The notes under the pieces: model-generated
The model's input: the letters and a program-made list of their open reading frames with translations, nothing else
What the model was told of the DNA's origin: nothing
Database searches by the model: none
Assembly (NCBI GenBank): GCA_030147925.1
Contig: JASBUK010000077.1
Span: forward strand, 1 to 33,463
DNA length: 33,463 nucleotides
Direction: 5' to 3'
Source of the DNA: Trueperaceae bacterium
Lineage (GTDB): Bacteria; Deinococcota; Deinococci; Deinococcales; Trueperaceae
Shown: piece after piece, positions 29,670 through 33,297 of the stretch
Layout of the letters: every line of letters begins with the position of its first letter
How positions within the stretch are numbered: the first letter of the stretch is position 1
Made by a program: the position numbers and the translations under genes

Positions 29670-30767
29670 TTATTTCGCTTTTTTGAAAAGCCCCTTGATG
29701 CGCTCTAGCAGCGTTTCGTGCGCCTCGATTTTTTCACCTACTTCCTGGGCGTAATCCTCAAGCAAGTCCCGCGCTCTGGGGTTGAGTTTTTTGGGTATCT
29801 GCACATCAGCGGTTACCACCAAGTCACCCATGCCCATGTGACGCAGACGTGGCATGCCCTTACCGCGCAGACGAAACTCGGTTCCTGCTTGCGTACCGGG
29901 GGGAATATTGATTACCTCGGGCTCATCCATGGTGGGAATCTCAAAAGCACTGCCCAGTGTTGCCTGGGCAATACCCAGTTTAAGCCGGTAATGTAGGTCG
30001 TCACCCTCACGGGTGAAGTCTTGATGAGGTTCAAGCTCGATATAAACATAAAGGTCACCCGCTTCGGCTCCGTCAATACCGGCATTGCCCTGTTGCGGAA
30101 TCCGCAAGCGGTAGCCCGCGTCAATGCCTTTGGGTAAATTGATCGGCACCGTCTCACGCACTTTCATGCGTCCACTGCCGCCACATTTGCCGCAAGCAGT
30201 GGTAATTACCTCACCAAAACCCCGGCACTTCGGGCAAGTTTGACTGCTCACCACAGTGCCAAAAAATGACTGTGACTGCATGCGTACCTGTCCTGCGCCA
30301 GCACAGGTCGGACAGGTCTGACGACCACCGCTGCCCGGTTCGGCACGCTCGCCCTCACAGCGATCACAAACTGTTAAGCGCTCTAGCTCGAGCTCCACTG
30401 TAGCGCCCACTCGCGCTTGCTCGAGCGTAACCGTTAGCCGGGCCTCAAGGTCTTCGCCCGGACGCCCCCGCTGAACCCCAAAACCGCCCCCGGTAAAACC
30501 ACTACCAAAGACCGAGGCAAAAATATCAAAGATATCGCCGCTATAGTGCGCTTGCGGATCGGCGCTGCCAAAGCGGTCGTAGCGGCTGCGTTTTTCCGTA
30601 TCGGAAAGAACCGCATAGGCCTCGTTGATTTCCTTAAACTTTTCCTCGGCGGCCTTATCGTCAGGGTTGCGGTCAGGGTGATATTTGAGAGCCAGCTTGC
30701 GGTAGGCGCTTTTAATCGCCGACGCCTCAGCGTCTTTGTCCACCCCTAGCAAGTCGTAGTAATCCAT
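29670..30767 (-). CDS. dnaJ: Chaperone DnaJ
   Basis: Hsp40 co-chaperone that stimulates DnaK ATPase. The J-domain starts [20 protein letters not shown], with HPD at residues 30-32. A short glycine/phenylalanine-rich segment follows ([11 protein letters not shown]). The cysteine-rich region has four CxxC motifs: CDRC, CPTC, CPKC and CGKC. The first departs from CxxCxGxG (CDRCEGER). The C-terminal substrate domain is intact. The ATG at 30767 matches the family N-terminus; an ATG at 30773 and a TTG at 30776 are alternatives. TATACT (minus strand, 30783-30788) lies 9 nt before the 30773 ATG, so the transcript may be nearly leaderless. Confidence 0.95.
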
Positions 30768-30827
30768 CGTCATCAACTAAGCAGTATAACCAACTGACAG
30801 CAATTAGTTGTAGTGCGCCAAAGATTT

Positions 30828-31214
30828 TTAACGGCGTTTTAAGTTGCGCAGTCGCGTCGTGGCTTCTTCTGCGCTGATCTCGCCCTGCTCGAGCAGATTG
30901 AGCACTTCGGTTCTTTCGCTCTGGCTGTCTTCGATTGCTTCATAAGCCTCGTAACCCAGTGATTTGAGCAGGTTTTCAAAGCGCAAACGCACCGTGGGAT
31001 AGCTAAGCCCCAAGATGCGCTCAACTTCTTTTAGGTTGCCACGCACCTTGACAAAAAGGCGCATGAATTCCAAGTGTTCGGCAGAAAGCAGCGCAAACTC
31101 ATTGGGTACAAAGCGCCCTTCGATTTTCACACCACTCGTGGGGCACTCTAGGCGCGTCACTTCGAGTGGTTCGCCCGTAACCGGGCACTGGGTTGGCATG
31201 GCCAGTTTTTGCAT
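30828..31214 (-). CDS. DUF2089 family protein with SHOCT-like tail
   Basis: 128 residues, with AAGGAG before the ATG. The N-terminus carries CPVTGEPLEVTRLECPTSG, a two-cysteine pattern typical of DUF2089. A helix-turn-helix-like central region follows (LKEVERILGLSYPTVRLRFENLLKSLG), suggesting DNA binding. The C-terminal helical tail, VLNLLEQGEISAEEATTRL, is the same module that opens two proteins encoded nearby (31630-32860). That shared module and the proximity make it the probable regulator of the DUF4097-like operon. Confidence 0.82.
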   Translation of the reverse strand: MQKLAMPTQCPVTGEPLEVTRLECPTSGVKIEGRFVPNEFALLSAEHLEFMRLFVKVRGNLKEVERILGLSYPTVRLRFENLLKSLGYEAYEAIEDSQSERTEVLNLLEQGEISAEEATTRLRNLKRR

Positions 31215-31228
31215 CTATAACTCCTTAA

Positions 31229-31531
31229 TCAAAGTCGGCTGAGTTTAATAGCAAACTCCGCACTGTCAATCTCCAAGATGGTATCGCCGGGGGCAAAACC
31301 AAGTGGCTTTAGATCATCGCGCAGCAAAATCAGGCTGGCTTCTTGCCAGCTCGGGCGGCTTTTCTGCCGGTAACGCCACCACAGCAAAACGAGCTTTAGG
31401 CCAAAACGCAGAACTTCCTCAAGCGCCCACAAGGGCAGCAGCGAAACAAAACGGTGTCGCTTTAAGCGAAATTCCAAACGCAGGAGACGCGGCCTTAAAT
31501 CAGTTATGTAGGATTGCTTTATCCGTATCAT
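31229..31531 (-). CDS. Small hypothetical basic protein
   Basis: 100 residues. A strongly basic N-terminal half (RPRLLRLEFRLKRHRF) surrounds a hydrophobic stretch (LLPLWALEEVLRFGLKLVLLWW) that could be an amphipathic or membrane helix. A compact acidic C-terminal part follows (LKPLGFAPGDTILEIDSAEFAIKL). I do not recognise the family. No ribosome-binding site is visible, so the start is uncertain. It lies 14 nt upstream of the DUF2089 gene on the same strand, suggesting a shared transcript. Confidence 0.55.
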   Translation of the reverse strand: MIRIKQSYITDLRPRLLRLEFRLKRHRFVSLLPLWALEEVLRFGLKLVLLWWRYRQKSRPSWQEASLILLRDDLKPLGFAPGDTILEIDSAEFAIKLSRL

Positions 31532-31563
31532 AAATAGAATCGTCTAAGGGGATGCTCTCACGA

Positions 31564-31598
31564 GCAGTTTTCCTGGCATTGCATGCCAGGAAAACTGC
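31564..31598. repeat. Perfect 16-bp inverted repeat (hairpin)
   Basis: GCAGTTTTCCTGGCAT and ATGCCAGGAAAACTGC are exact reverse complements around a 3-nt TGC loop. It lies between the SHOCT/DUF4097 operon end and the small gene at 31531. A T tract follows on neither strand, so it is not a standard terminator, though it could act as an RNA-stabilising or Rho-related hairpin. Twelve bases of one arm (TTTTCCTGGCAT) also occur at 19798-19809 after hemE. Confidence 0.7.
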
Positions 31599-31629
31599 AC
31601 TTTGGTATCAACTACAGCTAACAGCATGA

Positions 31630-31995
31630 CTAGACAACCTCAACAATCACCTTGACTTCTTTACCCTCATCATCAGCTTCGACTTCTACTAAGCGCCCCT
31701 CGGGCAATTCACCCTTTAGGACATCTAATAATTCATCTAAGTTGATGCCCTGGGCTTTTAGTTCCTCACGGGTTTCTGTGGGCACAAACTGCATGGCGAA
31801 CTTAGCCAGTGGAGCCGGCACGTTTACCCGCACTTTAGCCTGATCGGCGGCGTCGACCTGGATGCGCACCATTTTAGCTATGCCCTTTTTCGGGGCCGTG
31901 CTTGCTGTCTCTATGGCCGCGAGCAATTCCGTGGCCTGTTCGACGCTGATCTGTCCGGCGGCTAACATTTCGAGAATCTTTTGTCTTTCAGTCAC
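31630..31995 (-). CDS. SHOCT-like domain protein
   Basis: A GGAGG directly abuts a TTG at 32001, too close to use it, but lies 6 nt before a GTG at 31995, which is therefore chosen (121 residues). The N-terminal 27 residues (RQKILEMLAAGQISVEQATELL) are a SHOCT/YvlB-N-like helical hairpin. The rest is a small alpha/beta domain with VRIQVDAADQAKVRVNVPAPL and a C-terminal acidic beta strand pair. It overlaps the preceding DUF4097-like gene by 8 nt, so both are co-translated. It may act with it in envelope-stress sensing, as related yvl/lia genes do in Firmicutes. Confidence 0.82.
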   Translation of the reverse strand: MTERQKILEMLAAGQISVEQATELLAAIETASTAPKKGIAKMVRIQVDAADQAKVRVNVPAPLAKFAMQFVPTETREELKAQGINLDELLDVLKGELPEGRLVEVEADDEGKEVKVIVEVV

Positions 31996-32860
31996 TTTCA
32001 ACCTCCAGTTGTAAGTCCCCTGTGCGCAACTGCACTTCCAAAGATGCTGCGGCTTCCCCTAGCGTAGCTTCGACATGTCCCCCCATCATGCGCCGTTTTG
32101 TTTGCAGGGATTCTTTAAGTTCAGCCGGGCCTTTAAAATCGAGATCACCGATATTAACGTCTGCTGTTATTTTGACGCTCGAGCCCTTTAAGAGCTTAAT
32201 ATCAACATCACCTGCGGTTAACTGAACGCGGTGCTCACCCTCGCTTAAGAGCAAGCCAACATCGAGATCACCTGCACTCATGCTCAAATCAATACCGCCT
32301 AAATTAGTGGCGTTAATATCTCCGGCCAGTAAATTGCCTTTTAGGTAAGGAACGCCGTCAATATCAACATCTCCGGCTTTGCTCTTTAACTCCACTCCAT
32401 AGCCCGGTGGAATGCGAACGTTCAGGTCATCCATACGGCGCATAAATCCTGTGATCAAGCCAGCTAAGCTTTTATCTTCAGCACGCTCATAAGCAATGAG
32501 ATAATCATTGCCCTGCTTGCGAATCGTCGCCTTGCCGTCAACTGCAGGCGCGGTTAAAGACGGGTCAAGCCGGATAGAAAGGTCGCCTGCCAGCACATTA
32601 ATACGCACCCAGCTAAGACCCTGTGGTGTTTTGACGGCAGCGGGGTCGGGGGCTTTGGCTGCTGCAAACGGCATGTCACTAGCTTCTGCGTTATCGCTAG
32701 ACTCGCCTACAGCCGCCTGCTTGCTAACCTCCTGAGCAACATCGTCAACGGCAGTCTCGGCCTTATCAATGTCCTCTAGTGCCGATAAGAGTAGATCAGC
32801 TTCCTCCTGACTGATTTTGCCTTCTGCTAACAAGGCTTTAACGCGTTCTTGTTCCGTCAT
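31988..32860 (-). CDS. DUF4097 (toastrack-like) protein with N-terminal SHOCT-like domain
   Basis: 290 residues, with AGGAG before the ATG. Residues 1-30 are the SHOCT-like module (VKALLAEGKISQEEADLLLSAL). An acidic, alanine-rich linker spans about 32-80. From about 85 onward the protein has repeating beta strands with a recurring GD (LAGDLSIRL, KAGDVDIDG, LAGDINATN, SAGDLDVGL, TAGDVDIKL, NIGDLDFKG, RTGDLQLEV), the pattern of DUF4097 single-stranded beta-helix domains. Related YvlB/LiaX proteins take part in cell-envelope stress responses. There is no signal peptide. It is the middle gene of a three-gene operon. Confidence 0.85.
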   Translation of the reverse strand: MTEQERVKALLAEGKISQEEADLLLSALEDIDKAETAVDDVAQEVSKQAAVGESSDNAEASDMPFAAAKAPDPAAVKTPQGLSWVRINVLAGDLSIRLDPSLTAPAVDGKATIRKQGNDYLIAYERAEDKSLAGLITGFMRRMDDLNVRIPPGYGVELKSKAGDVDIDGVPYLKGNLLAGDINATNLGGIDLSMSAGDLDVGLLLSEGEHRVQLTAGDVDIKLLKGSSVKITADVNIGDLDFKGPAELKESLQTKRRMMGGHVEATLGEAAASLEVQLRTGDLQLEVESD

Positions 32861-32868
32861 TTTGTCTC

Positions 32869-33063
32869 CTAAAAGTGCGTGAGCGATTTGGTTGTTTTGC
32901 TGGCCTGGGGCTCGAGCCGCTCGGCCAGTAAACGCAAGCCCTGCGCTAAAGAGGCGCGTAGCGAGAGGCGAGGCGCCAGACTCCTTAGCCGGACTACCTG
33001 CGCCCTTTGCTCTTTTTCCACAATTTCGGCCCTAACCAGATACTCCAAATAAAACGGATTCAT
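32869..33063 (-). CDS. Small hypothetical protein leading the SHOCT/DUF4097 operon
   Basis: 64 residues (MNPFYLEYLVRAEIVEKEQR start) with a strong AAGGAGG 4-6 nt before the ATG and a near-consensus promoter upstream, so it is very likely real. The sequence is helical, with an Arg/Leu-rich middle (LRSLAPRLSLRASLAQGLRL). No signal peptide or recognised domain. It ends 8 nt before the DUF4097-like gene. Confidence 0.7.
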   Translation of the reverse strand: MNPFYLEYLVRAEIVEKEQRAQVVRLRSLAPRLSLRASLAQGLRLLAERLEPQASKTTKSLTHF

Positions 33064-33083
33064 AACGCCTCCTTTCTTAAATG

Positions 33084-33113
33084 AGTATAAAGCTATAGCT
33101 TATTGTTTGTCAA
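33084..33113 (-). promoter_or_regulatory. Promoter and operator of the SHOCT/DUF4097 operon
   Basis: On the minus strand a perfect TTGACA (33108-33113) and TATACT (33084-33089) are 18 bp apart. The spacer begins with or contains the perfect palindrome AAGCTATAGCTT (33090-33101), placed where a repressor would block polymerase. The transcript start would fall shortly before the ribosome site at about 33070. Confidence 0.7.
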
Positions 33114-33297
33114 TATTTATTTTATATATTATAAAGTTTAACTATATATAATCACAGGAACAAGTTTTTCGGCGACCAAAACAGCTAGTGGGTGCTTTGC
33201 GGTCAGTGGTTGGTAGGAAACCTTTCACTTTTCTCTTTTCCCGGCTCATCTGACAGCCATGCGTAGCCGGAACTTTCACCGCCTTTTTATGCCTACA
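33114..33297. other. AT-rich then unassigned sequence upstream of the DUF4097 operon
   Basis: 33114-33160 is extremely AT-rich (TATATATT-like stretches), perhaps an UP-type element for the strong promoter beside it. The remainder up to 33297 shows no gene; it contains a CTTTCACTTTTCTCTTTT pyrimidine run resembling the one in the element at 10240-10290. Confidence 0.4.

Follow-up and report, generated by a model that had tools for sequence, protein, structure and literature searches.

The stretch of DNA analysed here (the window, 33,463 nt) contains a short operon in which a DUF2089-type regulator is encoded next to a protein with a DUF4097 domain, and the question raised by this locus is how the regulator, its neighbours and their promoter are linked. 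An earlier note, made from the letters alone, described it as a repressor-controlled envelope-stress locus in which three proteins share one SHOCT-like helical module. The locus is real, conserved and of a published kind; its control element and its core pair are corrected below, and it includes two small proteins without a family.

Of 61 genomes searched, the window's own included, 56 contain PF22746 and 57 contain PF09862; the control genomes with matches include those of Thermus composti and Deinobacterium chartae. Sixty stretches around the regulator gene (D) were collected from relatives. Of these, 53 are main clusters and 7 are second copies, which makes 54 main clusters with the window's own; the relatives appear to be Deinococcota. 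A contig search led by the D protein of Niallia gave at least 504 relatives, and the best 80 of at least 504 were used here. Their titles are nearly all those of Bacillales, one naming Pseudomonas and one only Bacillota.

The operon lies on the minus strand and has the order K-T-S-O-D. The first gene, K (32869–33063), encodes a leader protein of 64 aa that belongs to no Pfam family; it has a conserved, amphipathic-looking motif LA..LR.LA.RLEP at its C-terminus. With a profile built from 19 K proteins of the window's family, K is recognised in 12 further clusters at E below 0.001, three other families among them, and K is present in 31/54 main clusters, lying downstream of D in two genomes (G045 and G049). 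T (31988–32860) is a protein of 290 aa with a SHOCT-like start and a Toastrack domain, DUF4097 (PF13349), which scores 32.3 bits against a cut-off of 22.9. The genome encodes a second Toastrack protein elsewhere (L070, G000:C52:82547-82963), which has no PF22746 match. S (31630–31995) has 121 aa, a SHOCT-like start and a tail domain without a family. If S starts at the GTG at 31995, which GGAGG precedes at a distance of six bases, the overlap of T and S is 8 nt, as the earlier note had it; a longer TTG start would make it 14 nt. O (31229–31531), found in 26 of the 54 main clusters, encodes 100 aa with a hydrophobic stretch and has no Pfam family. The earlier note had found T, S and D; the first gene, K, and the gene O had escaped it. 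Immediately downstream of D, and also on the minus strand, there is a dnaJ-type gene (29670–30776).

Among 60 members scanned, the S tail has no Pfam family apart from two single weak matches, and NCBIfam gives only scattered weak matches. In the predicted structure of S, the hairpin is fairly confident (about 83), whereas the tail, an uncertain bb-aaa-bb arrangement, is of low confidence (pLDDT about 60–68; pTM 0.40), and a fold search with this model gives no match at E 0.001. Sequence searches found no convincing solved relative of S or D. Relationships of O to the S tail (hhalign 11%) and to the third gene of the Bacillales loci described below (hhalign 0.8%) are unsupported. Between S and O, there is a hairpin with a 16-bp stem (31564–31598). 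It recurs at four dispersed places of the genome and is a small dispersed repeat, not a plain terminator; since it parts S from O-D in the window, D may be transcribed partly apart.

D (30828–31214) combines a degenerate zinc ribbon, an HTH and a SHOCT-like end, the domains covered by the DUF2089 family profiles PF09862, PF22747 and PF22746. Its HTH (PF09862, 30948–31088) scores 78.6 bits against a cut-off of 33.4. The DNA-binding regulator with a Toastrack partner that the earlier note described is supported, and its neighbourhood is conserved. The zinc-ribbon profile also matches D (49.6 bits), but the four cysteines are not all there. The first 44 residues contain only one or two cysteines in 32/32 D proteins of the window's family, while there are four in 14/14 of families f3 and f4 and none in 8/8 of f2 and f5; four are present in 76/80 Bacillales D proteins (best 80 of at least 504). 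Since the ribbon of D has lost cysteines in the window's family, D is unlikely to sense zinc or redox state there. The model of D shows the ribbon, the HTH and a C-terminal hairpin (pLDDT 79.4, pTM 0.44); its Foldseek matches are mostly HTHs of the LuxR/NarL type, with high probability and all at E above 0.1.

The three motifs read as one module in the earlier note lie where it placed them, in genes that are all on the minus strand, and all three match PF22746 (SHOCT-like_DUF2089-C), C-terminally in D and N-terminally in S and T. In D (30831–30917), the match covers residues 100–127 (30.1 bits), and in S (31906–31989), it covers residues 3–30 (34.6 bits), both over the cut-off of 27 bits; in T (32765–32854), residues 3–32 score 20.7 bits (E 3e-4), below the cut-off. 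The profile of classical SHOCT (PF09851) matches none of D, S and T up to E 1, and the related SHOCT-like PF22746 matches instead. A scan of the whole 2.98-Mb genome finds these three copies and no others, so chance does not account for their lying within about 2 kb of each other. That the module is a relic of duplication without a common function seems to us very improbable: short as it is, and weakly as it scores in T, it is recognised (E 0.1) in 51/54 D, 48/49 S and 43/49 T proteins of the main clusters and is present in 60/60 S proteins of alignment A5, while the bodies of these proteins are unrelated.

In the relatives, the gene order T-S-(O)-D is kept, and all recognised genes share one strand in 54/54 main clusters. 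Four clusters (G004, G051, G032 and G035) are out of order when judged by the starts of open frames, but the positions of domains give the usual order. T and S are each present in 49/54 main clusters, T being missing in G024, G054, G058 and G060, and S in G012, G021, G045 and G049. At least one of them is beside D in 53/54; in the remaining cluster, G023, the contig ends within the locus. The pairing of DUF2089 with DUF4097, for which the earlier note proposed a survey, is present in these clusters, with Toastrack as an optional member.

The Bacillales loci (best 80 of at least 504) carry S directly after D in 80/80 cases and have no Toastrack gene in flanks of up to 4 kb, so D with S, and not D with Toastrack, is the wider core. 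In 76 of these best 80 loci (L176–L255), S is followed by a small third gene of 90 aa with a hydrophobic stretch; profile comparison makes it a probable relative of the S tail (hhalign 90.8%, E 1.2e-6). Other partners are found as well. Seven relatives have a second copy of D, and in 5/7 of these loci (L124, L125, L126, L128 and L129), the adjoining protein has an N-terminal SHOCT-like module followed by HG(V/I)-type repeats without a clear Pfam family; no module-bearing neighbour was seen at the G048 copy, and the G044 locus is cut. On a Legionella plasmid, the neighbour of D is Yip1-like (E 3.9e-5, below the cut-off) and has a faint module-like start (E 1.6). Thus, D is accompanied by a module-bearing partner whose body changes. 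The idea of a shared module is generalised by these loci, and its centre shifts from Toastrack to S. A Terribacillus plasmid (L175:3010-3985) has PH-domain genes and a bacteriocin gene of the aureocin A53 type in the vicinity of DUF2089; DUF2089 genes adjoining leaderless bacteriocins are also on record (PMC9484092, PMC7332713).

Do the modules dock with each other, or do they tether each protein separately to the inner leaflet of the membrane? Co-variation between the D and S modules is not enriched in these small samples: such pairs make up 1 of the top 20, with 1.4 expected, both in the window's relatives (33 effective sequences) and in the pooled set (44), and 2 of 20 in Bacillales (11). 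An unrelated SHOCT peptide was monomeric and did not self-associate (PMC3581485). Separate anchoring is consistent with the missing co-variation signal, given the small sample, and with the hydrophobic or amphipathic look of O and K, and anchoring by SHOCT-like domains has been proposed in print (Ravi et al. 2024, PMC11237479). On the other hand, the module stays with D though its partner changes completely, which suggests a matched pair, and the operator reading given below, if right, would place the action of D on the DNA of its own promoter. We regard anchoring in place of docking as rather unlikely.

The core idea has a precedent, since the pairing of DUF2089 with a SHOCT-like Toastrack protein is already published. 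In the available text of Ravi et al. (2024, PMC11237479), DUF2089 is described as a zinc ribbon-HTH-SHOCT-like protein in a four-gene Toastrack context with a predicted Psp-like role; as here, it stands beside a Toastrack protein with an N-terminal SHOCT-like domain. That text is centred on Toastrack and gives no operator, whereas here D with S is the wider pair, T is optional, and K, the S tail and a conserved promoter element are added. The available portions of the literature found on DUF2089/PF09862 likewise mention no binding site. The earlier note compared the locus with Psp/Lia systems, and there is no Pfam match to PspA, PspC or LiaI-LiaF in K, T, S, O or D. Its phrase "without PspC" is true of the locus but not of the genome, which has PspC and two PspA proteins on other contigs. 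The yvlABCD operon of Bacillus subtilis and lmo2487-2484 of Listeria are likewise short operons with a Toastrack protein, YvlB (PMC12791056), and a further likeness is the SHOCT-like start of CAB15517.1 (PMC11237479). Genes for PspC and holin-like proteins belong to these operons, and sigma-W controls yvl in part, while the operon of the window has a DUF2089 gene and no PspC. As for LiaX of enterococci, the N-termini of S and T match its model at 12.9 and 12.7 bits against a cut-off of 350, so there is no significant match that would make S LiaX-like; unlike in the LiaX setting, no LiaFSR-type genes were recognised among the five genes of the window.

The promoter of the operon, called strong in the earlier note, is close to consensus: the promoter scan places TTGACA (33108–33113, minus strand) and TATACT (33084–33089, minus strand) 18 nt apart, with 11/12 consensus positions. 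The central palindrome of that note, AAGCTATAGCTT, is present (33090–33101, minus strand), but it is absent from the aligned promoters of relatives and is ruled out as the operator. There were 52 main clusters with enough upstream DNA, and in 45 of them, the promoter reached a score of 9.5 or more; these 45 were aligned on the −35 box; the other seven were left out because the stretch was cut or masked or contained no promoter within 480 nt. In this alignment, the conserved element is aATRKAAA at a fixed distance 5' of the −35 box, with T at −13 in 45/45, A at −9 in 45/45 and A at −8 in 44/45 promoters. In the window, this register falls in a putative operator unit 1 (33121–33135, minus strand), which lies immediately upstream of the −35 box. 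This unit is a perfect 15-bp dyad, TTTATA-ATA-TATAAA, and the genome's only exact match to TTTAYANNNTRTAAA. A weaker copy of aATRKAAA in the 45 promoters lies 22 bp downstream in the spacer, its left half being the −35 box itself; the corresponding putative unit 2 of the window, TTGACAAACAATAAG (33099–33113, minus strand), is degenerate. Because the promoters were picked for their TTGACA, the conservation of the −35 box proves nothing; no such choice had been made for the flanking copy. Symmetry of the dyad across the promoters is loose, with a mean of 2.84 of 6 pairs compared with 2.81 for shuffled halves and 1.2–1.8 at other offsets. Therefore, the symmetry comes from conserved columns and not from co-variation, and most of the signal resides in the right half.

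The spacing of the two copies appears as a self-match peak at period 22 (z 11.2) in the 45 operon promoters. For the Bacillales D promoters (78, from the best 80 of at least 504 relatives), the peak is at period 21, with z 11.7. Related sequences inflate these z values, but both peaks survive declustering, and the controls do not have them. After declustering to 41 promoters, the match at period 22 is 0.380 compared with 0.266 at other sites; for Bacillales, again among the best 80 of at least 504, the match at period 21 is 0.447 compared with 0.328 and 0.313 in AT-rich controls. Several other periods also beat the shuffles in these AT-rich Bacillales sequences (13 with z 9.5 and 9 with z 6.4). 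Taken sequence by sequence, 22 is the best period in 18/45 operon promoters, and 21 is the best in 21/78 Bacillales ones. The window's own dyad is not in excess over shuffles in the Bacillales promoters (same best 80 of at least 504).

An AT-rich element adjoining the −35 box might be an UP element or the site of another factor, with D acting elsewhere. However, WATRKAAA is present in register in 30/45 operon promoters and in 0/45 other promoter-like sites of the same loci. The pattern AATRKAAA-N7-TTGACA has 32 matches in 28 of 61 genomes, with a single match for the reversed-pattern control; 27 of the 32 precede this cluster by coordinates, that of G045 standing some 0.8 kb before T, and 5 are on other contigs. 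The window promoter, which has TATATAAA in this position, does not belong to the 32. Together with the second copy at 22 bp and the similar 21-bp period before Bacillales D (best 80 of at least 504), this distribution argues for a site belonging to the operon, and we consider an UP element or a foreign site quite unlikely.

A large regulon was considered and rejected: there is one exact dyad in the genome, and one-mismatch sequences occur at 14 places, compared with 11 reversed-pattern matches per strand. Single operator-like sites were noted before an ammonium-transporter-like gene (L167) and, in a relative, before an ABC-transporter ATPase-like gene (L153:286-360), the latter with a good promoter and SD; both genes were named by reading of the sequence. 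The ABC-transporter ATPase-like gene is a possible second target.

We find it slightly more probable than an even chance that K-T-S-O-D is a compact autoregulated one-component control operon, in which D acts on its own operator and its partners engage it through the module. With its LuxR/NarL-like HTH, D would be the protein that binds the promoter element, most likely at the tandem operator with 22-bp spacing upstream of and across its own −35 box, and by binding there, it would repress its own operon. The near-optimal spacer of 17–18 nt and a site across the −35 box would fit repression. D could instead be an activator needing partners: unit 1 adjoins the −35 box, many activators bind next to this box, and LuxR/NarL-type factors, to which most Foldseek matches of D belong, often activate. 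Such a role appears doubtful, for the promoter is already near consensus (11/12), and unit 2 overlaps the −35 box and the spacer. With D as a repressor, S and T, or other proteins at other loci, would most likely engage it through the common SHOCT-like hairpin, the modules of D and partner presumably touching. Whether D sits on DNA would then depend on the condition of its partners' bodies (S tail, Toastrack, near the membrane), and the signal may be envelope stress.

The layout as such was already described in outline; the precisely spaced, putative double control site at the promoter in related bacteria goes beyond it. DUF2089 proteins are widespread predicted regulators, and such a site makes the target of the regulator directly testable, while the candidate operator, the minimal pair of regulator and partner and the two small families (the S tail and K) make a family known from comparative genomics accessible to experiment. 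Tentatively, and at somewhat less than an even chance, DUF2089 regulators may form a widespread plug-in system. Its small autoregulator would bear a hairpin tag at the C-terminus and would have, across the −35 box of its own promoter, a tandem operator with a spacing of two helical turns. Its partners would be exchangeable and recruited through the same tag at their N-termini; the S tail would be the commonest of them, along with Toastrack and HG-repeat proteins.
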